Origin: Pseudonocardia sp. C8
GTDB taxonomy: Bacteria > Actinomycetota > Actinomycetes > Mycobacteriales > Pseudonocardiaceae
Length of the DNA stretch: 64,000 bases
Assembly: GCF_014267175.1 (NCBI RefSeq)
Contig: NZ_JACMTR010000002.1
Location: forward strand, 3,063,501 to 3,127,500
Direction: 5' to 3'
Positions within the stretch are counted from its first letter, which is position 1. Each line of letters starts with the position of its first letter. Below the pieces are notes generated by a model that worked only from the letters and a program-made list of their open reading frames with translations, made no database searches and was not told the DNA's origin. Both the position numbers and the translations under genes were made by a program. Below, in pieces: positions 10,601 to 59,700 of the stretch.

Positions 10601-11945
10601 CTGGCTGCGGCTGCTCGGCGCCCGGGTCGGGCGCGGCGCCGAGGTCTCCACCGCCTCGCACATCGACCCGGAGATGCTCACGATCTCCCCCGGCAGCTTC
10701 GTCGCGGACATGGCGAGCGTGGGCAGCGCGACCTTCCACAACGGCTGGATGGTGCGGCGCCCCACCCTGGTCGGGCGGCGGGCGTTCGTCGGGAACGCCG
10801 CGGTCGTCCCGGCCGGGTCGACGCTCGGCGCCGAGTCGCTGATCGGCGTGGCGACCGTGCCCCCGGCGTCGGGGGTGCCGGACGACACCACGTGGCTCGG
10901 TTCGCCGGCGATGAACCTGCCGGTGCGCCAGGACTCCGGGGAGCAGCCGGAGAGCCTGACGTTCCGGCCGTCCCGGCTCCGGGTCGCGGAGCGCCTGGGC
11001 ATCGAGTTCCTGCGGGCGACCCTGCCCGCCTCGGTGATCTCGGTGTCGCTCTACCTGTTCCTGCAGGCGCTCTCCGACGTCGCCCGGATCTCCCCGGCGT
11101 GGGCCGTGGTCCTCGCCGCGCCGGCGCTGGCGTTCGGCACCGCGCTGCTCCTGGTCGTGCTCGTCGCCGCCGTGAAATGGCTGGTCGTCGGCACCTACCG
11201 GCCGCGGGTCGAGCCGCTCTGGAGCCGGTTCGTGCGCCGCTCGGAGTTCGTCACCGGGCTGTACGAGGCCGCCGCGGTGCCGGGGCTGCTGATGATGCTG
11301 TCCGGGACGCCGATGCTCCCGCCGATGCTGCGGCTGATGGGCGCCCGGGTCGGGCACCGCACCTGCGTGTCCACCACCTACCTGACCGAGTTCGACCTGG
11401 TCGAGATCGGCGACGACGCCGTCGTCGGCCGGGACGTGTCGCTGCAGACCCACCTGTTCGAGGACCGGGTCATGAAGATGGCGACGGTCCGCATCGAGCG
11501 TGGCGCGAGCGTCGGCGACCGGGCGATCGTGCTCTACGACGCCGCCGTCGGACCCGGGGCGCGGCTCGAACCGCTGTCGCTGGTGATGAAGGGCGAGCAC
11601 CTTCCCGCCGGCAGCCGGTGGCGGGGCATCACCGCACAGCCGGTGGTGGACGCGCCGGCCCCGGCCGGATCGGAGGACCTCACCCAGCGGCTCGACGCGA
11701 TCGACCCGGAACGGACGCAGGTCCTGACCCCGGTCGGCCCGGGCGCGGACCCGGGCCGCACGGTGCGGCTCCGCTCGGTGCAGGCGACCCGCTCGTCGCC
11801 CCGGCTCCCGGCGCCGTCCGGGGCGGGCCGGCACCGGATCCCCGGCCCGCGCGGCTTCGGCCGGGCCCGGTTCGGGCGCGGTCTGGTGCGGACGCCCGCA
11901 GGTCCGCCCGCCCGGCCGGCCGCGAACCGGGGGGACGAGCGGTGA
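7677..11945 (+). CDS. Pls/PosA-family NRPS-like synthetase (A-T-membrane-beta-helix)
   Basis: A 1422-residue single-module synthetase. Residues 1-510 are an adenylation domain: YTSGSSGRPKG (A3), FDFSIEEIW (A4, with the Asp that binds an amino-acid amino group), NTYGPTEATVTATWG (A5), YRTGDLGRID (A7), and the lysine motif in PSGKVDRPKLP (A10). Residue 568 is the phosphopantetheine Ser in LGGHSLLAA. Membrane helices start near 635. Three left-handed beta-helix acyltransferase-like modules follow, each opening with LxGARVG (about residues 743, 979 and 1219). This matches the layout of poly-lysine synthetase Pls: A, T, six membrane segments, three C-terminal modules. The product is probably an isopeptide-linked oligo- or poly-amino acid; the amino acid is not known. 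The GTG start has AGGAG 11 bases upstream. Confidence 0.92.
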   Translation: MTMSPSRAGGPGLAPVPAGRPVRYPDRLHRFFEATVARTPHAVAVQDGALELTYAELDARAAQLARYLQAHGAGPGRRIGILLHRSWRTYAVLLAVLKTGAAFVPIDPAAPPDRVGYIRDDAGLDLLVTTSDLAADLPPGGLVQLDLCVDEVSRLPRHPLEPVPPHADPLAYIIYTSGSSGRPKGVAVAHPSICNFVHVITQVYDVRPHDRVYQGMTISFDFSIEEIWPTFAAGATLVVGPTDSRRIGAELGDFLAGTGVTVLCCVPTLLATIPRELPALRTLLVGGEACPAGLVERWARPGRRMLNTYGPTEATVTATWGELVPGRPVTIGRPVPTYSVVILDDALREVPRGEVGEICIGGPGVALGYVNLPEKTADRFVRHPAAPPNGDGRLYRTGDLGRIDEHGEIVYLGRADDEVKIRGHRVDLGEIESVALERADVESAVAALSKSDDGAGEELAVYVVPAGTAGPVDRSGLHELLRTRLPEYMVPGYVEVLDRLPMMPSGKVDRPKLPAPSGPRIVVAGGPVVGPATGLETRVRDVLAEALALEPGQVSVEADFFTELGGHSLLAARVVTLLRERGVGRTPAVRDLYEHATVRGLAGALDPAAGGSSDAVPPPPRPAPLRHSRRRYSLAGSAQAAALFVLMLTMTLPAAAVYAWHDGRVAPDVLAQLAVGATAIFLLLRWVLAPLAVRALGAEVRPGRYRMWGRVHLRLWAADLLLSLSPLPVLSGSPLAPGYLRLLGARVGRDVHLGTSVLSLPRMLQVGDGATIGYGAALRPWTAADGWVTVAPVAVGAGAHVGASAVVEPGAVIGADAVVGEQSAVAAEQVIPRGDQWAGSPCVPDSADPAVGELTERGPAPSWTRAQLAAAAGGVAACELVALASLVPAVLLVWTSLLVFGDGPALAVAVAAGPVFVLTVCVLVAAGRWAVAPRTGPGVFPARSALGLRKWFGDKLLEMSLAYTNSLYSTLYTVGWLRLLGARVGRGAEVSTASHIDPEMLTISPGSFVADMASVGSATFHNGWMVRRPTLVGRRAFVGNAAVVPAGSTLGAESLIGVATVPPASGVPDDTTWLGSPAMNLPVRQDSGEQPESLTFRPSRLRVAERLGIEFLRATLPASVISVSLYLFLQALSDVARISPAWAVVLAAPALAFGTALLLVVLVAAVKWLVVGTYRPRVEPLWSRFVRRSEFVTGLYEAAAVPGLLMMLSGTPMLPPMLRLMGARVGHRTCVSTTYLTEFDLVEIGDDAVVGRDVSLQTHLFEDRVMKMATVRIERGASVGDRAIVLYDAAVGPGARLEPLSLVMKGEHLPAGSRWRGITAQPVVDAPAPAGSEDLTQRLDAIDPERTQVLTPVGPGADPGRTVRLRSVQATRSSPRLPAPSGAGRHRIPGPRGFGRARFGRGLVRTPAGPPARPAANRGDER

Positions 11946-33546: not shown

Positions 33547-33610
33547 CCGCCGAGATGCACGCCCAGCGTTCGACGAAGATCGACAATTCGCGCTCGGCTG
33601 CACCTCGGCG
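33547..33610. repeat. 64-bp palindromic repeat, copy A
   Basis: Ends CCGAGATGCA and TGCACCTCGG face each other around an asymmetric centre containing AAGATCGACAATTCGCGCT. A related copy lies inverted at 54985-55047. Confidence 0.65.
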
Positions 33611-46306: not shown

Positions 46307-47880
46307 GCGACACGATCGAGTGCACCGGGCTGCGGGTGGCGACCACCGGCGGCCGGGAGGTGCTGCACGGGGTGGACTACGCCGTCGCGCCCGGCGAGAT
46401 CCTCGCCCTGGTCGGCGAGTCCGGATCGGGGAAGACGACGGCCGCGCTGGCCGCGCTCGGCCACTTCCGGACCGGGCTGGCGTGCACCGGAGGGACGATC
46501 ACCTTCCGCGGGCACACCGAGTCCCACGACGACCTGCTGGCGCTGCCCCCGGCGACACTGCGCGGGATCCGCGGCCGGCTGGTCTCCTACGTCCCGCAGG
46601 ATCCGGCGCTGTCACTGAACCCGCTGCTGCGCATCGGCACCCAGGTGTCCGAGGTGCTGGCCGCGCACGGCCACGAGGGGGTGGCCGAGGAGCGCGTCCG
46701 GGAGGTGCTGGCCGACGTCGGCCTGCCCACCGACGACGCGTTCCTGCGCCGCTACCCGCACCAGCTCTCCGGCGGGCAGCAGCAGCGGGTCGGGATCGCG
46801 GCCGCGTTCGCGAACCGGCCCGACGTCGTCGTCCTCGACGAGCCGACCACCGGGCTGGACGTCACCACCCAGGACCTGGTGCTGGAGACCGTGCGCCGGC
46901 TGGTCACCCGGTCCCGGACCGCGGCGCTCTACATCACCCACGACCTCGCGGTCGTCGCCGGGCTCGCGGACCGGGTCGCCGTGATGCAGGCCGGCGAGGT
47001 CGTGGAGACCGGGAGCGTGCAGCAGGTGCTGACCGCACCGGAGCACCCCTACACCCGGGCGCTGATCGCCGCCGTCCCCGACCTCGACAAGGCCGTCGAG
47101 CGGGGGCCGGCCCCGCCCGGCGACGGCACGCCGCTGCTGCGGGTGACCGGGGCCGGGAAGCGGTACGGGTCGAGGACGGTGCTCGACGGCGTCGACCTCG
47201 AGCTGTGGCCGGGCGAGTGCCTGATGCTGCTCGGCGAGTCCGGTTCCGGCAAGACCACGCTGGCCCGCGGCCTGTCCGGGCTGCTCGGCCTGGACACCGG
47301 CACGCTCACGCTCAAGGGCGAGGAGCTCGCCACACCGCGCAGCTACGCCCAGCTGCGCAGCGTGCAGTACGTGTTCCAGAGCCCGTTCGCCTCGCTCAAC
47401 CCGCGCCGCACGATCGGCAGCTCCCTGGAGGTGCCGTTGCGGCACCTCACCGACGCCGGGCCGGAGGCGCGCCGCGCGCGGGTGCTCGACATGCTCGGCC
47501 AGGTGCGGCTCGACGAATCGTTCGCCGGGCGCTACCCCGGCGGGCTCTCCGGCGGGGAACGCCAGCGGGCCGCCATCGCCCGGGCCCTCGTCACCGCCCC
47601 CGACGTGCTGGTCTGCGACGAGGTGACCTCGGCGCTGGACGTGTCGGTGCAGGCGTCGATCATCGAGCTGCTGGCGCTGGTGCGCCGCGAGCTCGGCACG
47701 GCGATGCTGTTCGTGACGCACAACATCGCGCTGGCCCGCGAGGTCGCCGACCGGATCGCGGTGCTGCAGGGCGGGCGGATCGTCGAGCAGGGCACCGTCT
47801 CCGAGGTGCTCGCGAACCCGCAGCACGACTACACCCGCCAGCTGCTGGAGCACACGCCGTCCATGGCGGCGGTGCGGTGA
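46303..47880 (+). CDS. ABC importer ATPase with two fused nucleotide-binding domains
   Basis: A 525-residue protein equal to DppD and DppF joined. Domain 1 has Walker A GESGSGKTTAAL and signature LSGGQQQRVGIAA; domain 2 has Walker A GESGSGKTTLARG and signature LSGGERQRAAIARA. Walker B and D-loops are intact in both (VVLDEPTTGLD; VCDEVTSALD). Such fusions are common in actinobacteria and make a complete ATPase dimer. The ATG overlaps the permease stop, and the stop overlaps the esterase GTG. Confidence 0.95.
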   Translation: MSDTIECTGLRVATTGGREVLHGVDYAVAPGEILALVGESGSGKTTAALAALGHFRTGLACTGGTITFRGHTESHDDLLALPPATLRGIRGRLVSYVPQDPALSLNPLLRIGTQVSEVLAAHGHEGVAEERVREVLADVGLPTDDAFLRRYPHQLSGGQQQRVGIAAAFANRPDVVVLDEPTTGLDVTTQDLVLETVRRLVTRSRTAALYITHDLAVVAGLADRVAVMQAGEVVETGSVQQVLTAPEHPYTRALIAAVPDLDKAVERGPAPPGDGTPLLRVTGAGKRYGSRTVLDGVDLELWPGECLMLLGESGSGKTTLARGLSGLLGLDTGTLTLKGEELATPRSYAQLRSVQYVFQSPFASLNPRRTIGSSLEVPLRHLTDAGPEARRARVLDMLGQVRLDESFAGRYPGGLSGGERQRAAIARALVTAPDVLVCDEVTSALDVSVQASIIELLALVRRELGTAMLFVTHNIALAREVADRIAVLQGGRIVEQGTVSEVLANPQHDYTRQLLEHTPSMAAVR

Positions 47881-49001
47881 GCGGGGACCCGCGGGGGACG
47901 GTGGCGCCGGGGTTCGGCGCGGTCGCCGACGCGTTCGCCGCCGTCCTCGCGGACACCCGGGGCGGGGCCGCGTTCTCCGTGGTCCGGGGCGGTGTGCCGC
48001 TGGTGGAGCTGCACGGCGGGCTCGCCGACCCGGACACCGGGCGACCGTGGGACGCGGACACCGTCGCGGTGCTGTTCTCCGGCACGAAGGGCCTGGCCGC
48101 GGCCGCCGCGGCGGACGTGCTCGACCCCGACCTGCCGGTCGCCCGGTACTGGCCGGAGTTCGCCGCGGCCGGCAAGGACACGGTGACGGTCGCGCAGGTG
48201 CTCGCGCACACCGCCGGGCTGCCCTACCTCGACCCGGATCCCGCACCCGGGTCCCCGGTGGACGACCGGGCCTCGGCGGCCGTGCTGGCCCGCCAGGCCC
48301 CGCTGTGGGAGCCCGGCAGCCGGGTCGCCTACCACGCCCTGACCTGGGGTCACCTGGTCGCCGAGCTGCTGGTCCGGGCCACCGGGCGGGACCCCCGCCG
48401 GGTCGTCGAGGACGTCGTCGCCCGGGTTCCCGGCGCCCGCGTGCACCTGGGCTCGGCACCCCTGCCGGCCCGGATCGTCCGCGCGCCCGGCTACCGGATC
48501 TCCACCTTCCTGCAGGACGATCCCGGACGCCGCCGGATCGTCGAGCGCATGTACCGGGCGCTGCTCGACGACACCGACACGGTCAACTCCCCGGCCTGGT
48601 ACCGGTCGGGCGCGCTGGCCGGTGCCGGGGTGGCCGGTGCCCCGGCGGTCGCCCGGTTCTACGCGGCGCTGGCCGACCCGGCGCGCTCCCCCGTCGCCGC
48701 TGCGGCGCTCGAGCGGGCCACCCGCCCGCACGCGGCCGGGCTCGACGCGATCAACGACCGGCCGCTGCGGTTCGGGCTGGGCTTCGAGCTGGCCGACCCG
48801 ATCGGCACCTACGGCCCGGAACCGGTCGCGTTCGGGCACAGCGGCGCCGGCGGCGGGCGGCACGGGACGTGGCCGGAGCGCGGGATCGGGTTCTCGTTCG
48901 TCACCAACGAGATGCGCGCCGAGGACGTCGACGACCGCGCGTCGACTCTCCTCGGCGCGCTGCACGCGTGCCTCGCGGGCACGCGCGTCCCTAGCTGGTG
49001 A
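47877..49001 (+). CDS. Serine hydrolase, class C beta-lactamase-like/family VIII esterase
   Basis: A 374-residue cytoplasmic-looking serine hydrolase. The nucleophile motif SGTK (Ser68, Lys71) is the SxxK of the family. A later Tyr in VAYHALTWGH and HSGAGG complete the site. No signal peptide is seen. The GTG overlaps the fused ATPase stop, so it belongs to the importer operon. A role in splitting an ester brought in by the importer, such as an acylcarnitine, is an attractive guess. Its 3' end overlaps the convergent TetR gene by 11 bases. A 69-bp stretch of it (48852-48920) is duplicated at 54846. Confidence 0.88.
   Translation: MSGDPRGTVAPGFGAVADAFAAVLADTRGGAAFSVVRGGVPLVELHGGLADPDTGRPWDADTVAVLFSGTKGLAAAAAADVLDPDLPVARYWPEFAAAGKDTVTVAQVLAHTAGLPYLDPDPAPGSPVDDRASAAVLARQAPLWEPGSRVAYHALTWGHLVAELLVRATGRDPRRVVEDVVARVPGARVHLGSAPLPARIVRAPGYRISTFLQDDPGRRRIVERMYRALLDDTDTVNSPAWYRSGALAGAGVAGAPAVARFYAALADPARSPVAAAALERATRPHAAGLDAINDRPLRFGLGFELADPIGTYGPEPVAFGHSGAGGGRHGTWPERGIGFSFVTNEMRAEDVDDRASTLLGALHACLAGTRVPSW
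48852..48920 (+). repeat. 69-bp direct repeat, left copy (inside the esterase gene)
   Basis: This piece of the esterase gene matches 54846-54914 at 65 of 69 positions by my alignment, in the same orientation. It brackets the lower-G+C island together with the right copy. Confidence 0.85.
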
Positions 49002-49560
49002 GGGACGCGGCGAGAAGCTCGACCGTGGCATCGATCCGCTCCGCGTCACCGGTGCTGAGGAAGTCCACGATGAGGCCGGTGAGCGCCGCCAGCATCAACG
49101 AAGCCATCAGCTCGGCTTCGTGACGGTCGCGGCCTTCGGAGACGAGCCATGTGGCGAAGTAGTCGGTCCAGTACGCCTGCAGATCCCGGCGCCTGGTTTC
49201 GGAGATCGCCGCCGTGTCGGCGGTCAGCATCGCCTCCATGTTCAGCCGCGGGAACGCGAACCGTTCCGGCTTCTCCCGCCACCAGCTCCACAGCGCTCTC
49301 AACGCCTCTGCGACGGTCAGTGCGGGGTGCTCGTCCCGCAGCTCGGTCAACATGTCCAACGTGGATGCGCGTGCGCGGCTCAGCGCCGCATCGATGAGCC
49401 CGTCCTTCGAACCGAACTGGTAGGAGATCGTGTTCGTGCTGACCCCGAGATAGGCAGCCAGCTTCCGCATCGAGAGCCCCGCGAGCCCGTGCTCGGCGAG
49501 GAAGGCGACGGCACAGTCGAGGACCTCGTCGGCACGGTCGGGATGAGCAGGCCGGCCCAT
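48991..49560 (-). CDS. TetR-family repressor of the island
   Basis: A 189-residue TetR protein. The DNA-binding part is LSMRKLAAYLGVSTNTISYQFGSKDGLIDA (recognition helix at residues 40-50). The rest is an alpha-helical ligand domain ending ELLAASLTS. ATG 49560 has AAGGGG just upstream; a longer start at 49602 adds 14 residues. It is divergent from the ABC importer operon and the inverted repeat 49648-49667 lies between them, so it likely controls that operon. Codon use is less G+C-biased than in the genes before it, as elsewhere in the island. Confidence 0.88.
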   Translation of the reverse strand: MGRPAHPDRADEVLDCAVAFLAEHGLAGLSMRKLAAYLGVSTNTISYQFGSKDGLIDAALSRARASTLDMLTELRDEHPALTVAEALRALWSWWREKPERFAFPRLNMEAMLTADTAAISETRRRDLQAYWTDYFATWLVSEGRDRHEAELMASLMLAALTGLIVDFLSTGDAERIDATVELLAASLTS

Positions 49561-49627
49561 GCACGCCCCTTCTTCCGTTGACGACCGATGGTAGCTGCAC
49601 ACCCCGGATCGGCCGGACGGTCACCTC

Positions 49628-49667
49628 TTGACCCCGCTTGGAACGATCGTTACGTTCGCTTGTAACG
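49628..49667 (+). promoter_or_regulatory. Promoter and TetR operator of the importer operon
   Basis: TTGACC (49628-49633) and TACGTT (49651-49656) with a 17-base spacer make a good promoter. The inverted repeat CGTTAC-N8-GTAACG (49648-49667) covers the -10. A second small palindrome AACGATCGTT lies at 49642-49651. A TetR repressor binding here would block the rightward operon. The leader is then about 115 bases long. Confidence 0.6.
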
Positions 49668-49777
49668 GTTGTCACGTATACGCCCGTCGGCCCGCGCCCA
49701 CGTGGGGCGACGCCGTGCCCCGCCCCACCGGCCACGGAGTCTCCGCCCGGTGATGACCGGCAGGAGGAGCAGTACCA

Positions 49778-51019
49778 GTGATCGAGATTCAGGAACTCAG
49801 CAGGGTGTTCGGACTCGGCGACGACGCAGCTCGACGCGCACTGGCCACCGAGAACCCGGTCGGCACCGTACGCGCCGCCGGAGGTCACCTCGCCGTGCAC
49901 GACGTGGACCTCACCATCGAGCGTGGCGAGCTGTTCGTGGTCATGGGGCTCTCGGGTTCGGGCAAGTCGACCCTGATCCGGATGCTCAACGGCCTCGTCC
50001 GGCCCACGACCGGCAGAGTCCGGATCGACGGCCAGGACCTGCTCACGTTGCGCGGGGCGGCGCTGCAGACGATGCGCAACCGAACGGTGAGCATGGTCTT
50101 CCAGAACTTCGGACTGCTGCCGCACAAGTCGGTCCGCGACAACGCCGGCTACGGGCTGTCGGTGCGCGGAGTCAACCGGCGCGAACGACGTGAGCGTGCG
50201 GACTGGGCGCTGGCAGAGGTCGGGCTCGCCGACTGGGGCGACCGATTTCCCGGCGAGCTTTCGGGCGGGATGCAACAGCGCGTCGGACTGGCTCGGGCGC
50301 TGGCCACGGACGCCGAGGTCCTGCTCATGGACGAGCCCTACAGCGCACTCGACCCCCTGATCCGCACCGAGATGCAGGACCTGCTGCTACGTCTGCAATC
50401 CGAGCTCCACCGGACGATCGTGTTCGTCACCCACGACCTCAACGAAGCGGTGAAACTGGGTGACCGGGTCATGGTGATGCGTGACGGGCGGTCGGCCCAG
50501 CTCGGGACGGCACTGGACATCATCAACGCCCCGGCAGACGGCTACATCCGTGACTTCACCGCCGGCATCGACCGGACGCGGGCACTCACCGCCGAGATGA
50601 TCCTGCGCGAGCCGCTGCTGAGCGCCCGGGTCGTCGAGCACCCGGAGGACGTCCTGGTCAGGCTGGAGAACGCCGAGGCGAACGGTGTGTTCGTCCTCGA
50701 CGACGATGGTGTCCTGCTGGGGATCGCCCGTGACGACACCCTCGCGCATGCCGTTCGGCACCGCGCGACCACCCTGCACCCGGCCCTCGTCGACGACTAC
50801 GAGACCGTGGCTCGGGACCGCCCGTTGACCGAGCTGTGCCGGCGAGTGGGGCAGTGGCCGGTCCCGCTCGCGGTCGTCGACGACCAGTACCGCCTCCTCG
50901 GTGTCGTCCCGCGGGCCGCACTCCTCGCCGCACTCGCCACGCCAGTCCCCGACATCGATGGTCGCGGGGGGTCCTCCGACGACCCGTGCGTGGCCCAGGA
51001 GGAGGCCGTCCGTGCCTGA
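49778..51019 (+). CDS. Glycine-betaine-type ABC importer ATPase with CBS domains
   Basis: A 413-residue ProV/OpuAA-type ATPase. The N-terminus is that of the quaternary-amine group ([14 protein letters not shown]). Walker [10 protein letters not shown] is at residues 57-65, signature [14 protein letters not shown], Walker [15 protein letters not shown]. Two CBS motifs follow (about 290-400, e.g. [18 protein letters not shown]), a usual osmosensing/regulatory part. GTG with AGGAGGAG upstream. The permease starts 8 bases before its stop. Substrate: a betaine-like compound by family, not proven. Confidence 0.93.
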
Positions 51020-51929
51020 GATCGATCTCGGATCCTTCGCAGCCGCTCTCGTCGACTGGATGCAGGACAGCCTCCAACCGCTGTTCGACACCGTGTCGAG
51101 CCTTGTATCGGCGCTGGTCGAGGTGGTCACCGCAGCGCTGGCAGGTCCCCCGGCGCTGGTCACGATCGCCGTTCTGGTGGCCCTCGCAGTTGCCACCCGT
51201 CGCCCTGCGTTCATCGGATACGCGGTCCTGTCGCTGCTGCTGATCAATGCGATGGGGTTGTGGACCGACGCCATGCACACACTCGCTCTCGTTCTCGTCG
51301 CCGCCGTCGTCGCGCTGATGATCGGCATACCCCTGGGGATCGTGACCGCATACAGCCGGACCGTCGCGTTCGTCGTGCGCCCGATGCTCGACCTTGCGCA
51401 GACGATGCCGGTCTTCGTCTACCTGATTCCTGCGGTGTTCCTGTTCGGCATCGGCGCGACACCAGGTGTGGTCGCCACCATCGTTTTCGCGGTCGCTCCG
51501 GCGGTTCGACTCACCGAGTTGGGCATTCGTGAAGTCGATCCCTCGGTGGTCGAGGCGGCCGTCTCCTTCGGTGCCGGTCGATGGCAGATCCTGACCGAGG
51601 TGCACCTGCCCCTCGCGATGCGATCGATCATGACCGGGGTCAACCAGGTGATCATGATGTCGCTCTCCATGGTCGTCATCGCCGGGATGGTCGGCGCCGA
51701 CGGTCTCGGCGAGCTCGTCGTCCAGGCGGTGTCGTCGCTGGATGTCGCCGGCGGCTTCCAGAGCGGCCTCGCCGTCGTCCTCCTCGCGATTTACCTGGAC
51801 CGGCTCTCCGGATCGGTCGCAACCTCACCTGGCGGTCGCCCCCGCGGCACCGTCGCCGGACTGCTCGGTCGCCGGGGCCCCACCACGACGCCGGACAAGC
51901 CCGGCACGACCTCGCCCGCTCCGGCCTGA
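51012..51929 (+). CDS. Glycine-betaine-type ABC importer permease
   Basis: A 305-residue ProW/OpuAB permease with about seven helices. Marks are IGIPLGIVTAYSR, LDLAQTMPVFVYLIPAVFLFG, VAPAVRLTELGIREV, and the EAA loop AAVSFGAGRWQILTEVHLPLA. The GTG at 51012 overlaps the ATPase stop by 8 bases and has GGAGG upstream. The C-terminus has a short Pro/Thr-rich tail. Confidence 0.93.
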   Translation: MPEIDLGSFAAALVDWMQDSLQPLFDTVSSLVSALVEVVTAALAGPPALVTIAVLVALAVATRRPAFIGYAVLSLLLINAMGLWTDAMHTLALVLVAAVVALMIGIPLGIVTAYSRTVAFVVRPMLDLAQTMPVFVYLIPAVFLFGIGATPGVVATIVFAVAPAVRLTELGIREVDPSVVEAAVSFGAGRWQILTEVHLPLAMRSIMTGVNQVIMMSLSMVVIAGMVGADGLGELVVQAVSSLDVAGGFQSGLAVVLLAIYLDRLSGSVATSPGGRPRGTVAGLLGRRGPTTTPDKPGTTSPAPA

Positions 51930-51959
51930 CCGCTTCCCCTGACGTTGAAAGGCATTCCC

Positions 51960-52850
51960 ATGACATGTCGTGCTTGGACCAGATCCGTCGCCCTCGCGCT
52001 CACCACCGTCCTTGCCGTTGTCCTCTCCGCGTGCGGGACAACGTCCTCGGCCGGCTCGACGGACAAGGAGATCACCCTCGGCCTGTTGAGCTGGGAGGAA
52101 TCGACTGCAGTCGGCAACGTCTGGGCCGTGCTACTGGAGAGCCGTGGCTATCAGGTCACCCTGCAGCAGGTCGACGCCGGCCCGGCGTTCGATGCAACGG
52201 CCCGGAGCCAGATCGACGTCCTGCTCGAAATGTGGCCGAACTACCATGCCGAGTACATGAAGAAGTACGAGGGAAAGATTGCCTCCCTCGGCCAGTGGTA
52301 CGAGCCGACAGACATCAACCTCACCGTTCCCGACTATGTCACGAATGTGAACTCCATCGCCGACCTCCGAGGCAAGGAGAGCGAGTTCGGTGATCGGATC
52401 GTCGGTATCGAGGCCGGCTCGACGACGATGAAGCTGCTTGCCGAGGATGTCGCGCCCGCATACGGCCTGACCGGCTACGATCTCGTCCAGAGCAGCACTC
52501 CCGCGATGCTCGCCGAGCTCCGGAAGGCCGTGGCCGAGCAACGACCGATCGTCGTGTCGCTGTGGAAGCCCCACTGGGCCTACGCCGAGCTGCCCCTGAA
52601 GTCGCTGGCCGACCCTCAGAAGAAGTTCGGCGGCGCCGGAACCATCGACACGGTCGCCGCCGTAGATTTCGCGAGGGAGAATCCTGACGTCGCCGAGATG
52701 TTCGGACGGTTCTCGCTCGACGAACAGCAACTGGCCGACCTCATGCTCTCACTGGAGAGGGCCGGCAAGGGCAATGAACGCGCCGGAGCCCAGGCCTGGA
52801 TCGACGCCAACCGGCAGCTGACAGATCGGTGGCTCGGCGCCGGACGGTGA
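51960..52850 (+). CDS. Glycine-betaine-type ABC solute-binding lipoprotein
   Basis: A 296-residue OpuAC/ProX-type binding protein. The signal peptide ends in the lipobox VLSACG. Body marks are ITLGLLSWEESTAVGNVW, DVLLEMWPNYHAEY (a Trp that could take part in a quaternary-ammonium cage) and SLWKPHWAYAELPLKSL, the family signature. ATG 51960 has GAAAGG before it; a TTG at 51945 would add 5 residues. The ligand may be a betaine or a sulfonium analogue. Confidence 0.93.
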   Translation: MTCRAWTRSVALALTTVLAVVLSACGTTSSAGSTDKEITLGLLSWEESTAVGNVWAVLLESRGYQVTLQQVDAGPAFDATARSQIDVLLEMWPNYHAEYMKKYEGKIASLGQWYEPTDINLTVPDYVTNVNSIADLRGKESEFGDRIVGIEAGSTTMKLLAEDVAPAYGLTGYDLVQSSTPAMLAELRKAVAEQRPIVVSLWKPHWAYAELPLKSLADPQKKFGGAGTIDTVAAVDFARENPDVAEMFGRFSLDEQQLADLMLSLERAGKGNERAGAQAWIDANRQLTDRWLGAGR

Positions 52851-52911
52851 GGCGGTCGACTCGCGATCGCCGACCCCGCATCAGCATCCTCAACGTGAAG
52901 ATCGGAGAGCC

Positions 52912-54264
52912 ATGCCCGAGAACCGTCCGCGTTCGGACCAGATGAGCCTCGGCATCGTCCTGTCGCCGACGACCGCGCACATCGCCGGCTGGCGGAGTCC
53001 CGACGCGGTGTCGAACGCCGGCGCGACGTTCGAATTCTTCCGGGAATCCGCGGCGACTGCCGAGCGGTCCGCATTCGACTTCGTCTTCCTCGCCGATGAG
53101 CTCTGCCCGCCCGACGCACCCGCAGAGGTCCTCAGCCTCGATCCGGTCATCTACCGGTACGAACCGATCACGCTCGCCTCGGCGCTGTCGGTCTGCACGA
53201 CGACGATCGGGATCGTGGTGACACAGACCACGACCTACAACGAGCCGTACCACCTGGCTCGGAAGCTTGCATCCATCGACAACCTCAGCAACGGCCGCAT
53301 CGGATGGAATCTCGTGACCTCGTACGTCGAGGCGGAGGCACGGAACTTCAGCCATGGCGAGCATGCCGAGTACACCGACCGGTACGCCCGGGCGGCCGAG
53401 TTCTTCGAGGTCGCCGCGGGCCTCTGGGACAGCTGGGACGACGACGCCTTCGTACTGGACAAGAGCACGGGCAGGTACTTCGACCCGACCAAGATGCACC
53501 CGCTCAACCACAAGGGGGACTACTTCTCCGTCGCCGGACCACTGAACGTGATCCGCTCCCCCCAGGGCAGACCGGTCCTCGTCCAGGCCGGGGCGTCCGA
53601 GCCCGGGCTCGATCTCGCAGCGCGATTCGCCGAGACCGCGTTCACGGCCCAGCAGAATCTCGCCTCGGGCCAGGCCTACTACCGTGATCTCAAGCAGCGC
53701 ATGCGGTCCTACGGGCGGCCTGACGACGCGCTTCGAGTCATCGCAGGCGTGTTCCCCGTCATCGGCGGGACCATCGCGGAGGCGGAGGCGAGGTACCGGG
53801 ACCTCCAAGAGCTCATTCTGCCGGAAATCGGGCTGACCCGGCTGTCCCAACTCCTGGGCTTCGATGTGACCGAGATGTCGCTCGACGAACCCCTGCCGAA
53901 CGAGATCCCCGAGACGAACAGCTACCAGAGCCGGCAGCGTCTCATCATCGAGATGGCCAGGCGGGACCGGCTGACTCTACGGGAACTCTACTTGCGGGTC
54001 GTGACGTCCTACGGGCACCGAACCGTTCTCGGCACCCCGGAGACGGTAGCCGACACGCTCGAGGAGTGGTTCGAGGCGCGAGCCGCCGACGGCTTCATGG
54101 TGATGGCACCGGTCATGCCGTCCGGGCTCGCCGAGTTCACCTCGGCAGTCGTCCCGGAACTCCGTCGCAGGGGGCTGTTCCGCGACGACTACTCCGGTGC
54201 GACCCTCCGGTCCCACCTCGGCCTCAGCCGACCCGAGCGCGGCGCACCGCTCGCCCAGCCATGA
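52912..54264 (+). CDS. Flavin-dependent monooxygenase, NtaA/SnaA/DszA group
   Basis: A 450-residue bacterial-luciferase-like monooxygenase using reduced FMN. Marks of the group are FFRESAATAERSAFDFVFLAD, LDPVIYRYEPITLASAL, SNGRIGWNLVTS, NFSHGEHAEYTDRYARAAEF and the loop PLNHKGDYFSVAGPLN. Known members attack C-N or C-S bonds in nitrilotriacetate, EDTA, dimethyl sulfide and dibenzothiophene sulfone. GGAGAG before the ATG. The reductase gene overlaps its stop. With the betaine-type importer it probably starts breakdown of an imported amine or sulfur compound. Confidence 0.92.
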   Translation: MPENRPRSDQMSLGIVLSPTTAHIAGWRSPDAVSNAGATFEFFRESAATAERSAFDFVFLADELCPPDAPAEVLSLDPVIYRYEPITLASALSVCTTTIGIVVTQTTTYNEPYHLARKLASIDNLSNGRIGWNLVTSYVEAEARNFSHGEHAEYTDRYARAAEFFEVAAGLWDSWDDDAFVLDKSTGRYFDPTKMHPLNHKGDYFSVAGPLNVIRSPQGRPVLVQAGASEPGLDLAARFAETAFTAQQNLASGQAYYRDLKQRMRSYGRPDDALRVIAGVFPVIGGTIAEAEARYRDLQELILPEIGLTRLSQLLGFDVTEMSLDEPLPNEIPETNSYQSRQRLIIEMARRDRLTLRELYLRVVTSYGHRTVLGTPETVADTLEEWFEARAADGFMVMAPVMPSGLAEFTSAVVPELRRRGLFRDDYSGATLRSHLGLSRPERGAPLAQP

Positions 54265-54842
54265 GTCCCGGCTCACTCGACCGGGCACGGCACCATCACG
54301 ACGCTGCACGGTCGGCGCGACGGCCGGCATCCGGAGGAGCCTCGGTGGTCGACCTCGACCCCCTGACCGGTGAACCCGAACAGCTCCGCAGCGCATACAG
54401 CTGCTTTCCCAGCGGTGTGACCGCCGTCTGCGCCTTGTCCGGGGGCCGGCCCAGGGGAATCGCTGCCAGCTCGTTCACCCCTGTCTCCCTGAACCCGCCG
54501 TTGGTCTCGGTGTGCGTGCAGAACACGTCAACGACGTGGCCACGGCTCCGCACGCTGCCCCGGTTGGGGGTGAGTGTGCTCGGTGCAGGCCAGGACACCA
54601 CCGCGACCCGGCTCGCAGCGAAGCATGGTGACCGGTTCGCAGACGTTCCATGGCAGGCAACCCCAGATGGTGGAGTGCTCGTGCACCAGGCGGTGCTCTG
54701 GCTCGACTGCTCGGTTCACTCGGAGGTCTCGGCCGGCGACCACATCGTGGCCCTGCTCCAGGTACACGGCTTGCGTTCCCACCCGGATCGGGTCCCGCTC
54801 GTGTTCCACGGCAGCCGGTTCCGCCAGCTGGTCGAGGTCTGA
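54261..54842 (+). CDS. Flavin reductase (monooxygenase partner)
   Basis: A 193-residue flavin reductase-like protein that supplies reduced FMN. Marks are FPSGVTAVCALSGGRPRGIA, SSFTPVSLNPPLVSVCVQ and LDCSVHSEVSAGDHIVALLQV. The ATG overlaps the monooxygenase stop (ATGA). The N-terminal 30 residues are variable and basic. Immediately after its stop comes the broken esterase fragment at 54846. Confidence 0.9.
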   Translation: MSPGSLDRARHHHDAARSARRPASGGASVVDLDPLTGEPEQLRSAYSCFPSGVTAVCALSGGRPRGIAASSFTPVSLNPPLVSVCVQNTSTTWPRLRTLPRLGVSVLGAGQDTTATRLAAKHGDRFADVPWQATPDGGVLVHQAVLWLDCSVHSEVSAGDHIVALLQVHGLRSHPDRVPLVFHGSRFRQLVEV

Positions 54843-54845
54843 TGT

Positions 54846-54914
54846 GGCGGGCGGCACGGGGCGCGGCCGGAGCGCGGGCTCGGGTTCTCGTTCGTCACCA
54901 ACGAGATGCCCGCC
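54846..54914 (+). pseudogene. Remnant of a serine hydrolase gene (right copy of the 69-bp repeat)
   Basis: In the esterase frame this stretch reads as GFSFVTNEM with flanking residues like those in the esterase C-terminus, then loses similarity after 54914. It matches 48852-48920 at 65 of 69 bases. No start or complete domain is present, so it is a remnant. Confidence 0.8.
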
Positions 54915-54984
54915 ACCGGTCGAACCGCTCCCGCCCGGCCGGGCGAAGGACGCTCGGCTCGGTTCGTCCGTGCCCGGAACGACC

Positions 54985-55047
54985 CCGCCGACATGCGGCC
55001 CAGCGCGAATGTCGATCTCTGCCGGACGCTCGGCTGCATCTCGGCGG
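54985..55047. repeat. 64-bp palindromic repeat, copy B (inverted)
   Basis: The reverse complement of this stretch aligns with 33547-33610, including CCGAGATGCA at one end and AGATCGACATTCGCGCT in the centre. It lies in the 242-base gap between the island and the nitroreductase gene. Confidence 0.65.
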
Positions 55048-55084
55048 GTCGGACGCGACCGTTCGACGGCGCGGCGGGGCGCGG

Positions 55085-55708
55085 TCAGGCGAAGCTCAGC
55101 ACCTCGGCGGAGTCCAGGCGGGGCAGGCGCTGCTGCCAGGCGTCGCCGGCCGGGTGCCCGAGGTTGACCACGAGCAGCACGGTGTGCCGCCCGCCGGGGA
55201 AGAACTCGCGCGTCACGGCGTCGGCGTCGAACCCGGCCATCGGGCCGGTGGCCAGGCCGTGCGCCCGGGCGGCGAGCAGGAAGTAGCCGGCCTGCAGGCT
55301 CCCGTTGAACCGGGCCATGCCGGCGCGGCCGTCCCGGCCCTGCTCCTCGAGGCTCTCCCGGAACCCGGGCTTGATCGGGAACGTCACCGGGACGTGCTCG
55401 TGGAAGTCCAGGTCCGCGGCCAGCAGCGCGACGGCCGGCGCGGCCTCGGACTTCGGCCGGTTGCCCTCGGCGAGCAGCGGCAGCAGCCGGTCCTTGCCCT
55501 CGCCGGTGCGCACGTAGGTCACGCGCAGCGGCTGGGTGTTGGCCGCGGTCGGCGGCCACTGGGCCAGCTCCCAGACCGAGCGGAGCGTCTCGTCGGTGAC
55601 GGGCTCGTCGGTGAACGTGTTCGCGGTGCGGGCCTCGGTGAACAGCGCGGCGCGGCCGGCGGCGTCGAGACGCGGCAGGCGCACGGGGGAAGCGGTCTGT
55701 GCGGTCAC
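55085..55708 (-). CDS. Nitroreductase-family protein, RutE/malonic semialdehyde reductase-like
   Basis: A 207-residue FMN oxidoreductase. TANTFTDEPVTDETLRSVWE, WPPTAANTQPLRVTYV and GYFLLAARAHGLATGPMAGFD follow the RutE/HadB pattern. These reduce malonic semialdehyde (in pyrimidine breakdown) or related compounds with NAD(P)H. The GTG at 55708 is used; I see no strong ribosome site. It lies 73 bases downstream of the epimerase gene and on its strand. Confidence 0.88.
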   Translation of the reverse strand: MTAQTASPVRLPRLDAAGRAALFTEARTANTFTDEPVTDETLRSVWELAQWPPTAANTQPLRVTYVRTGEGKDRLLPLLAEGNRPKSEAAPAVALLAADLDFHEHVPVTFPIKPGFRESLEEQGRDGRAGMARFNGSLQAGYFLLAARAHGLATGPMAGFDADAVTREFFPGGRHTVLLVVNLGHPAGDAWQQRLPRLDSAEVLSFA

Positions 55709-55746
55709 GTGATGCTGGAGCGTTCAACCACCCCGGGTGGATTCCC

Positions 55747-55760
55747 GGCACAGACGTGCC
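55747..55760 (-). terminator. Small hairpin after the epimerase gene
   Basis: GGCAC-AGAC-GTGCC lies between the epimerase stop and the nitroreductase start. A weak terminator at best. Confidence 0.3.
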
Positions 55761-55780
55761 GTTGATCACCCTGCTGCCGG

Positions 55781-56698
55781 TCACCCGGTGGCGCAGACGC
55801 CCCAGCGCAGCACCTCGGCCTCCCCCGGCACGAGCTCGACCAGGTCGGCGCCGGAGTTGAGCGCGTCCGGCGGGCAGGTCATCGGCTCGACGGCGACCGC
55901 CCGCGACACGACGACCGCACCGTCCGGACCCTGGCGCGGGAACTCCCCCGGGGTGAACACCTGCACCCAGCCGAACGCCGGCTCGGCCCACAGCTCGGTG
56001 CCGCCGCCGTCCGGGGCGGCGACCCGGTGCCGGACGAGGTCGTCGCCGTCACCGGGGACGCAGCCGCCGAACGCGCCGTCCAGCTCCAGACCGCCCAGCG
56101 GGGTCGACGCGAACGGTCGCTCCAGCGGCACCGCGGGCCCGTCCGGGAGCTGGTCGCGCAGCGGCAGCACGGTGCGGGCGGCGAGGGTCAGCTCCAGCTC
56201 GTCGGTGGGGACGTCACCGACCCGCAGGTACGGGTGGAACCCCAGCCCGAACGGGACCGGTGCGGCGCCGAGGTTCTCCACGACCGTCTCCACCGCGAGG
56301 CCGCCCGCGCCGACCGTGTAGGTGATCGTCACGCGGACCGGCTGCGGCCAGCCCGGCTGCACCGGGGCGACCGCGGTCAGCGTCACGTGGTCGCCGCCGC
56401 GGCCGGTGAGCGTCCACGGCACGTGGCGCAGCAGGCCGTGGATGGCGTTGCCGGCGTCCGGCTCGGAGAGCGCGAGCCGGTGCGTGGTGCCGCGGTGGCG
56501 CCAGCGGCCACCGCGGACCCGGTTCGGCCACGGCGCGAGCACCGCGCCGGAGCCCTTCGGGGGCCGGGCCGTGGGCGGGTGCGGTTCCAGGCGCACCCGG
56601 CCGCCCTGGGCGAAGCCGGCGAGACCGCCGCCGACCTCGTCGACGTCGGCCCGGGCATCCCCGCTGACGATCACGAACCGCTCACCGCAGGCGTCCAT
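55781..56698 (-). CDS. Aldose 1-epimerase-family protein
   Basis: A 305-residue galactose mutarotase-like protein. Catalytic marks are NAIHGLLRHVPWTL (His), FGLGFHPYLRVG (second His) and a C-terminal VEPMTCPPDALNSG with Glu near VELVPGEAE. It interconverts the anomers of a hexose or hexose phosphate. The ATG at 56698 follows the ATPase gene by 28 bases on the same strand. The neighbours do not fix the sugar. Confidence 0.88.
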   Translation of the reverse strand: MDACGERFVIVSGDARADVDEVGGGLAGFAQGGRVRLEPHPPTARPPKGSGAVLAPWPNRVRGGRWRHRGTTHRLALSEPDAGNAIHGLLRHVPWTLTGRGGDHVTLTAVAPVQPGWPQPVRVTITYTVGAGGLAVETVVENLGAAPVPFGLGFHPYLRVGDVPTDELELTLAARTVLPLRDQLPDGPAVPLERPFASTPLGGLELDGAFGGCVPGDGDDLVRHRVAAPDGGGTELWAEPAFGWVQVFTPGEFPRQGPDGAVVVSRAVAVEPMTCPPDALNSGADLVELVPGEAEVLRWGVCATG

Positions 56699-56726
56699 AC
56701 GCGCAGTCTGCTGCAGCCGGGCCCGC

Positions 56727-59700
56727 TCACCCCGCCAGGGGGGTCGCCCGGGCGGCCTCGGCGTCCAGGACGGCGTCGACCGGGGTGGGCGGGCCCAGCT
56801 CGGTGACCGTGAAGTCGACCCCGGTGCCGCGGGCCAGGCCGACCACGTGCTCGTGATGGGTGAACAGCAGGACCTGCTGGGTGGCCGCCAGCTCGGCGAG
56901 CACACTGATCGCGGCCGGGGCCCGCTCGTCGTCGAAGGTCATCAGCACGTCGTCGAGCACCACCGGAACCGGCGGCAGCCCGGCCGCGGCCCGGTCGGCC
57001 TGCAGCTGCTCGATCCCGGCCAGCCGCAGCGCCAGGTGCACCTGGTCCGCGGTGCCCTCGGACAGCTTCCGCGGCGGCAGCTCCTCGCCGTCACCGCGGA
57101 CCGCGACCAGGCTCCTGGCTCCGGCTGCCGACCGCCCGTCCACCTCGGACGGCGGCCGGAGCGCCACGAACCGGCCACCGGTCAGCCGCTCCAGCAGCGT
57201 CCCGGCCCGGACCAGCAGCGGGGACGCGTGGCTGCGCTCGTAGGCCTCCAGCTCCCGGCGCAGGATCTCCCGCTGCAGGTGCAGCACCAGGTAGCGCTCG
57301 GCCGCCTCGGCGACGCCGGCCAGCTCCTCCTGGGCACGGGCGTGCAGCTCGGCGGCGCCCTCGGTCTCCTCCAGCTCGCGGCGCCGGGCCCGCAGCCCGC
57401 CGAGCTGCTCGCGGATCGCGTCCTGCTCGGCGCCCAGCTCCCGCTCGCGCGCCTCGGCGCGCGCAAGGGCCTCGGCCAGCGCACCCGGCTCGGTGTCCGG
57501 TGCGGCGGCGACGAGCTCGTCGGCGTCCAGGTCGGGGGCGGCCGCCGCGAGCAGGCGGGACTGCTCGGCGATCCGGGCGTCCAGGTCGGCAACGGTGGCG
57601 CCGCGCTCGGCCGCGGCCTCCAGCCCGCCCGGTTCCATCGCCTCGGTCAGCGCCAGCTCGACGGCGAGCCGGTCCAGCACCGCGCCGGCCGCGGCGACGT
57701 CCCGGGCCGCGCGGGCCGCGGCGTCCTCCGCGGCCGCAATGCCGTCGTCGAGGTGCCCGGCCGACACCGCGGCCTTGGTCACCTCGCGGACCCGGTCGGC
57801 CAGCTCCCCGAGCCGGTCGGCGGACGCGGTGCCGGTCGGCGCCTTCGGCAGGTGCCGCTCGACCAGCGCGGTCACGGCCCGCCGGTGCGCGTTCACGGCC
57901 CGTTCGAGGCGCCGCGCCTCGGCGTCGTCCTGGCGGGCGGTCGCCCCGGCCTGCTGGGCGTCGGCGACGGTGTCGCGGCGGGTGTCCCATCCGGACGGTT
58001 CCAGATCGGTGGGCAGCCCGGCGCCGCGCAGCGCGAACCGCCAGCGCGAGCGCGCCAGGTCCCGCTCGTGCCGCGCGGCGTCGGCCGCCCCGCCGGCCCG
58101 CTCGGCCTCGCTGCGCAGCCGGGCCAGCAGCACCCGGCGGTCGCGGGCGTGCTCGGCCTCGGTGGCGAGGTCGGCGGCGGCGACCAGCAGCACGTCCAGC
58201 GGCGCCCCGTCCCGCGGACGCCCGGCCGCGGCCAGCGCGGCCGCGAGCGCACGTTCCTGCTCGTCGGCCTGGTCACGCAGCCGGGCCAGCCGCTCGTCGG
58301 CCCGGGCGACCTCGTCCTGCGCGCGGGCGGCGTCGGTGAGGGCGGTGACGACCGCGTCGGCGTCGTCCGCGTCCGGGACGGCGACGCCGTGCGAGCGCCA
58401 CAGCGTCGCCCAGGCCGCCCCGGCCTCCGCGGCCCGGGACCGGGCCTCCTCGACCGCGGACGTCGCACCGCCCGACCGGGCCACCGCCTCCTCCAGCTCG
58501 GCCTCGCGGTGCGCGAGCTCGGCGACCCGGTCCGCGGAGGCGATCATGTCGTCGGCGACCCGGTCGGCGGCGGCGACGGCGGCCGCGACCCGCGCGGCGG
58601 CGTCCCCGAACCCCGCGGCGGCGTGTCCCGGCCCGGCAGGAGCGGCTTCCGGTCCGGCAGCGGCCTCCCGTGACCCGGCGGCGGCATCCCCCGGCCGCAC
58701 GGCCGCGTCACCGGCTCGCGCGGCGAGCAGCTCCGCCACTGCGGCGTCCCGCTCGGCGCGGGCGGCGGCCAGGGCGTCCGGGCCGACCGGGCGGCCGCGG
58801 CCCGCGACCCCGTCCCGGGCCGACCGGGCCCGGTGCTCGCGCTCGGCGGCGTCGGCGGCCGCGCGCTCGGCGGCGCGGAGATCCTGCTCGGCGGCGCGCA
58901 GCGCGGTCCGCAGCGCACGCACCTCGCGCACCGGGGGCGCCAGCACGGCCCCGTCGCCGCCCGGGTCGCGGCCCGGGTCACCCGCGCCGCGGTAGCCGGC
59001 CGCGGCCAGCGCCTCGGAGCGGCGGGCCAGCGCCGCGTCCCGCTCGACGACGGCCGCCCGGCACAGCGCCGCCGCCGACCCCTCGGCCTCGATCGCACGG
59101 CGGACCTCGGCGACCCGGCCGACCCGCTCGGCGTCGAGCCCGCCCGGCACGTCGGCGGCCTCCCGGACCTCGGCGAGCGCCTCGGCGTGCAGCCGCTCGG
59201 CCCGCTCGGCCTCGACCTCCGCGTCGTGCAACCGGCGGGCGATCTCGTCGAGGTCGCGGGCCCGGTCGGTGGGCAGGTGGACGGCGGCGAGCCGCTCGTC
59301 GGCGCTGCGCCCGTCCTCGGCGACGAGCTCGGCGAGCGCGGACTCGGCACGCCGGTGCAGCTCGGCGGCGTCGGCCCGCAGCCGGGCGGCCCGCTCCGCG
59401 TCGGCCCGGCGGGCCTGCGCTGCGGACTCCAGCTCCCGGATCCGGGTGGCGTCGGCCAGCAGGTCCTCGTCGAGGTCGAGCTCGGCGCGGCGGGCGCGCA
59501 GCTCGTCGGCGCGGGCCCGGTGCTCGTCACGCTGCTGCTCAGCGGCCGCCCGGTCGGCGGTCGCGCGGGTGTACTCGGCCAGCGACCCGGCGTCGAGCGC
59601 GGCGCCGGTGGCGCACAGCGCCGCCCGCTCGGCCCGCAGGGTGGCCAGCTCGTGGGCCGGTTCCTGGGCCCGGACGGCCTGCCGGGCGCGGTCGGCGTCC

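Follow-up and report, generated by a model that had tools for sequence, protein, structure and literature searches.

How did six genes come to lie between the esterase and nitroreductase genes of an actinobacterial chromosome, with a 69-bp piece of that esterase repeated directly behind the last of them? We addressed this question within a 64-kb window (the whole stretch of DNA that was analysed) by examining base composition, gene content and the orthologous site in related genomes.

A Six-Gene Islet of Lowered G+C Content Follows the Esterase Gene

The islet extends from approximately 48974 to 54845 (5.87 kb) and is the lowest-G+C stretch of its length in the window, i.e., 67.3% G+C compared to a mean of 74.5% (sd 2.3) over all equal stretches. 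The minimum among 5871-base stretches starts at 48973, and G+C content returns to 76.6% over 54846-55084. Taken together with the limits of homology described below, these values place the foreign piece at approximately 48974-54845, with the repeated esterase fragment (hereafter the scar) on the native side. G+C content at third codon positions (GC3) ranges from 0.79 to 0.87 in the six islet genes, compared to 0.96-0.98 in five correctly framed neighbours. The original prediction of lower G+C content therefore holds both for overall composition, where the islet is the minimum of the window, and for codons, with GC3 lowered in all six genes; however, its sampled values of 34-35 of 60 bases (57%) overstate the average drop. 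It also placed the island at 48852..54914, which correctly captures the bracketing repeat, but the island proper begins at approximately 48974 rather than 48852. The dinucleotide signature of the islet is not extreme (9 of 59 windows are equally deviant), which counts against a foreign origin.

Upstream lies an intact serine hydrolase gene (PF00144, here called the esterase; 47877..49001, + strand), recognised by its open reading frame, a family search and its relatives, with a GTG start at 47877 assigned from the overlap with the upstream stop codon. The islet opens with a gene on the opposite strand for a TetR-family regulator (48991..49560, - strand; reading frame extendable to 49602), identified from its reading frame and family search. 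The 3' end of the esterase gene now overlaps the 3' end of this convergent gene. Five closely packed + strand genes follow. They encode, in order, a ProV/OpuAA-type ABC ATPase (49778..51019; TIGR01186 above cut-off, with a weak C-terminal CBS match), a ProW/OpuAB-type permease (51012..51929; reading frame and family search), whose GTG start overlaps the ATPase stop, an OpuAC-type (PF04069) substrate-binding protein (51945..52850; family search and alignment), an NtaA/DmoA-family FMN-dependent monooxygenase (52912..54264), and a flavin reductase (PF01613; 54261..54842), the start of which overlaps the monooxygenase stop by 4 bases. An imperfect inverted repeat (49643..49672), with 11-nt arms 8 apart, lies between tetR and the operon and is a candidate operator by prediction. 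Beyond the islet, a nitroreductase-family protein is encoded on the - strand (55085..55708) and scores above the cut-off of a malonic semialdehyde reductase model.

Neither an integrase nor a transposase was detected among the nine proteins scanned from the esterase to the aldose epimerase, in agreement with the original description of six genes between the repeat copies without an integrase. No tRNA gene was found in the 64-kb window, and no Rfam match at E up to 1 over 47000-57000. As judged from these nine proteins and the window, the islet thus has none of the integrase, transposase or tRNA site by which an integrative element is defined.

The Scar Is a Truncated Second Copy of the Esterase

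The left copy of the repeat (48852..48920, + strand) is intact and coding. It recurs in the same orientation at 54846..54914 (+ strand), at a spacing of 5994, with 65 of its 69 nt identical. The second copy begins 3 bases past the flavin reductase stop codon (54840-54842), such that the alignment bears out the prediction of a duplicated esterase piece directly behind the last island gene. A search of the host genome (6.24 Mb) with the repeat, in which 40 of 405 candidates were scored, retrieved the second copy at E 8.1e-24 and the next-best place at E 4.9e-5. Both edges of the 69-bp copy are abrupt. To the right, the similarity of 54915-54964 to 48921-49000 is no better than that of shuffled sequences, of which 534 of 1000 scored as well. 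Upstream of the two copies, only 3 of 1000 shuffles were as good; however, 10 of 183 other esterase windows and 41 of 1156 other island windows match this similarity in strength, and we therefore did not count it as an extension. On the basis of these shuffle and control-window comparisons, a longer repeat on either side was rejected.

The Orthologous Site Is Empty in Related Genomes

Among 62 genomes of the genus, 11 others contain near full-length matches to the esterase (60-84% identity), and their surroundings were compared; a twelfth genome, G074, has a partial match (64% over half of the protein) and was left out. In six of the 11 (G043, G058, G059, G044, G066 and G042), the nitroreductase and then the aldose epimerase come directly after the esterase, i.e., the empty site by which the original prediction could be checked is present. 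The aldose epimerase stands directly behind the esterase in two (G057 and G065), and different content is found there in the remaining three (G001, G010 and G068); the contigs of G065 and G068 reach just 1.1 and 1.6 kb, approximately, beyond the esterase. No match at E 1e-8 to the TetR regulator, the OpuAC protein or the monooxygenase was found near the esterase in any of the 11, and G010 has a flavin reductase match (34%) approximately 10 kb away. In G001 (L031, approximately 10480-11869), translations at the 3' boundary of the esterase read as an AraC-type regulator-like and a dihydrofolate reductase-like frame, and no nitroreductase was found at that boundary. With other genes at this spot in G001, the 3' end of the esterase may be a place that takes up genes repeatedly.

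These comparisons resolve both junctions. In the alignment with G058, position 48973 of the window corresponds to locus base 8296 and position 55084 to locus base 8306. Homology to the relatives ends at approximately 48973, where nine of the 11 have a TGA stop codon as scored by eye (the exceptions being G044 and G068); the G058 protein ends in LHACL. The left junction is hence the native stop codon of the esterase, from which the reading frame continues into islet DNA (48974-49001). Through loss of this stop codon, the esterase is eight residues longer, with the additional residues encoded by the islet. At the right end, the relatives align again from the nitroreductase stop codon, or in G042 already from 55050 onward. 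The islet is an insertion absent from the orthologous site in relatives, and its two junction positions and shifted composition are likewise direct observations. Its acquisition is supported by the empty site in six of the 11 relatives together with a composition shift that starts and ends at the same points. The original prediction had proposed recombination within an esterase gene. This applies to the right junction, which lies in esterase sequence, but not to the left, which falls at the esterase's own stop codon; no donor molecule was identified.

Compared with the 11 relatives, the four differing sites of the 69 comprise one at which the intact copy is private, two at which the scar is private and one at which the relatives are mixed. 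Once private changes are removed, the copies differ at 0-1 of the 69 sites, whereas the nearest relatives still differ at no fewer than 4. The scar and the intact copy are each other's closest sequences; for comparison, the intact copy differs from G058 at 5 of 69 sites. The scar is thus most likely, as far as so few sites can tell, a copy of the esterase of the recipient lineage itself or of a very close donor, and this narrows the earlier suggestion of a remnant of either the donor or the recipient copy. Since the copies are closer together than either is to the relatives, the duplication would postdate the split from G043 and G058. Between the window and G043, 75 of 223 fourfold-degenerate sites differ in the esterase and 29 of 120 in the nitroreductase. 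Set against this divergence, the 2-3 changes in 69 non-coding bases suggest, as a rough comparison, that the duplication is younger than the split from G043.

No Near-Identical Donor Was Found Among the Genomes Searched

No near-identical donor of the islet was detected in the 62 genus genomes, the best 80 GTDB loci, the 120 proteins listed per search, or 397 genomes of the order (five candidates scored per genome). The binding protein shares at most 45% identity with the 119 other proteins listed and 44% with its best match across the 397 order genomes, again with five candidates scored in each; within the genus, matches at E 1e-25 or better occur in six of 61 other genomes, at no more than 40% identity. 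For the monooxygenase, the highest identity among the full-length genus matches listed is 48%; a partial match in G015 reaches 51%, and the closest of the 80 best GTDB loci 56%. The nearest named relatives of the flavin reductase, among the matches listed, are from Pseudonocardia (72% and 69% in separate searches), which is probably the genus of the host. Judging by this similarity, at least the flavin reductase gene may come from close by.

Insertion With Target Duplication Is the Favoured Route

Our best reading of the sequence is that the islet was inserted by illegitimate or homology-assisted recombination. As a whole, the locus is best explained by an insertion with a target duplication of approximately 122 bp, the right copy of which was later partly overwritten; we assign this reading a probability of roughly 0.55. 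In the ancestor, the esterase and nitroreductase genes would have been adjacent and convergent, with their stop codons close together. Approximately 5.9 kb of foreign DNA carrying a complete regulated cassette would then have been joined at the esterase stop codon on one side and, on the other, to a point 122 bp upstream within that gene, duplicating 48852-48973 around the insert. Such a join could have arisen through homology-assisted illegitimate recombination or through end joining at a break that was staggered or re-copied. The left copy would keep the esterase whole except for its changed C-terminus. The right copy, being useless, would decay, with its last 53 bp lost or overwritten when a stretch of approximately 140 bp came in that contains a palindromic repeat of the genus, and with 2-3 point changes accumulating in the remaining 69 bp.

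Several features of the locus bear on this sequence of events. The esterase up to its last codon, then the insert, then the esterase again from 122 bp back is the arrangement expected from duplicating 48852-48973. A second event is needed because the last 53 bases of the esterase are missing behind the scar, where 50 bp and the palindrome stand instead; a plain homologous exchange predicts those 53 bases at this point, and they are absent. The host genome encodes a Ku homologue (177.8 bits), which favours this reading. The need for an extra event counts against it, as do the small number of sites in 69 bp and the fact that no intermediate strain was seen. We infer that the islet arrived in one event, that 122 bp were duplicated, how the steps followed one another and that end joining took part. 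We rejected a target-site duplication made by a transposon, since 53 bp separate the end of the left copy from the islet edge and no transposase occurs among the nine proteins scanned. Moreover, target duplications generated by transposition are typically shorter than 69 bp.

Three other histories were weighed against this one. The islet could have been joined end to end, with its right side filled by short copied pieces of which the 69 bp would be one. The host's Ku homologue, the abrupt edges on both sides of the 69 bp and the three unrelated short pieces that stand side by side at the right junction would all suit such filling; even so, we regard it as unlikely, given that the scar, lying at the islet edge, has the orientation and order expected from a target duplication and that a search of the host genome, in which 40 of 107 candidates were scored, gave no convincing source of the 50-bp piece (54915..54964; best E 0.0014). 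A close relative that already carried the islet beside its esterase could also have passed on the block by ordinary homologous exchange. The near identity of the scar to the recipient gene is as expected of a close donor, yet across the 61 other genus genomes the nearest binding protein has 40% identity and the nearest full-length monooxygenase listed 48%, and the proposal merely shifts the question of origin to the donor; we consider it improbable.

It is least credible, and in our view very improbable, that the six genes were present in the ancestor of the genus and were lost by the relatives. Independent losses are possible, and five of the 11 relatives differ downstream of the esterase in any case. 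However, the six relatives with an esterase-nitroreductase junction have neither scar nor palindrome there, and in five of them a stop codon is present at the native point, whereas loss between direct repeats would leave a repeat behind. The atypical G+C content of the islet also speaks against this history.

Comparable gains of small segments and modules are known elsewhere. Homology-facilitated illegitimate recombination is a documented means of gaining such blocks in passages of PMC2884548 and PMC5361080. As in the small variable segments described there, the islet is a small accessory block between shared genes in which no integrase was seen; in those systems, one end is anchored by homology and the other is joined illegitimately. 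The Vibrio cases in these passages have the leftover 3' part of a displaced effector, or an immunity gene, downstream. In contrast, the anchor gene of the islet is whole, its leftover is a 69-bp internal piece, and its host is an actinobacterium with a Ku homologue. The six-gene islet of this soil actinobacterium looks like a known kind of event, namely an ordinary, well-resolved gene gain without a mobile element. It provides a nearly base-resolved case in which an actinobacterium gains a whole regulated pathway with no visible mobile element and with a scar of the target gene alongside.

The Cassette Probably Encodes Uptake and Oxygenation of a Betaine-Like Compound

On the basis of family assignments, the cassette probably imports a betaine-like (quaternary ammonium or sulfonium) compound under the control of TetR and oxygenates it in an FMNH2-dependent reaction that would probably cut a C-S or C-N bond. 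Our best guess is that TetR controls the operon by acting on the candidate operator between them. The monooxygenase has the hallmarks of an NtaA/DmoA two-component system: it scores 532.8 bits against TIGR03860, far above the cut-off of 279.7, and adjoins a PF01613 gene, as in other NtaA/DmoA/CmoJ-type FMN monooxygenases with flavin reductases. Its nearest solved relatives are MoxC and YtnJ (approximately 359 bits), and we take YtnJ to be CmoJ. Cleavage of a C-S bond by CmoJ is described in PMC10863075.

All three parts of an OpuA/ProU importer, namely an ATPase, a permease and a binding protein, are encoded. Scores exceed the cut-off of the ProV subfamily model for the ATPase and that of the OpuAC model for the binding protein; the permease lies below the choline and ProW equivalog cut-offs. 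In alignment, the binding protein keeps three tryptophans that correspond to those of OpuAC, which presumably line the betaine cage. Unlike OpuA/ProU importers, the islet couples a binding protein of such low identity (at most 45% to the 119 others listed) to a monooxygenase, and this link suggests a role in catabolism rather than osmoprotection. The permease also sets the islet apart from three related monooxygenase operons (L104, L109 and L125), in which the permeases most resemble SaoP, sulfonate and taurine models without reaching any of the cut-offs. L125 additionally carries a TauD-family dioxygenase; two further frames tried among these operons gave no family match.

An OpuA-type importer beside a monooxygenase was not found in the best 80 of 587 GTDB relatives, for which loci of up to 8 kb on each side of the monooxygenase were compared, some ending earlier at contig ends. 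In these 80 loci, a match to the OpuAC binding protein occurs once (28%, approximately 7 kb off), permease matches occur twice, and a match to the ABC ATPase lies within 3 kb in 35. The pairing was also not found in 16 loci chosen from top matches (eight by binding protein, five by flavin reductase and three by monooxygenase), with no monooxygenase match beside the eight importers chosen by binding protein. One monooxygenase locus, L256, has matches to the ABC ATPase (47%) and permease (32%) and none to the binding protein. A narrow literature search did not retrieve, among the papers listed, an FMN monooxygenase paired with a glycine betaine ABC transporter. We tentatively raise the possibility, without holding it to be the likelier outcome, of an undescribed catabolic module in which a betaine-type importer with an aromatic cage replaces the sulfonate-type importer and feeds a quaternary ammonium or sulfonium organosulfur compound to a CmoJ/NtaA-type monooxygenase. 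The locus points to a predicted enzyme-importer pairing, the substrate of which is accessible to simple binding and growth assays.

A Dispersed Palindromic Repeat Lies Behind the Scar

The 50-bp piece is followed by an imperfect palindrome (54965..55052, + strand) that belongs to a repeat dispersed in the genus. When 54915-55084 served as the query, at least 42 of the 62 genus genomes had matches at E up to 0.01, although many of these matches are weak and short; the host genome had at least 13, and some relatives carry many copies. These counts are lower bounds, with 13 candidates scored per genome in this initial pass. Twelve host copies and four loci of G043 and G058 were aligned. A core pattern, allowing up to 2 mismatches, is matched 26 times in the host genome (14 times on one strand and 12 on the other), compared to none for the reversed control, and at most 5 times in each of 24 other genomes (a set without G043, G058 and G054). 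The copy behind the scar fails this core pattern even at 3 mismatches, whereas 33578-33595 of the window matches it. Its predicted RNA fold stands out only slightly (z -2.07), with 7 of 200 shuffles folding equally well. Neither the palindrome of the window nor the scar is matched at this site in the six tight relatives. The dispersed palindrome, of approximately 85 bp, may be a REP-like element of the genus. In G043, the nearest relative, a copy is found just upstream of the esterase (contig C109:17716-17804; L072).
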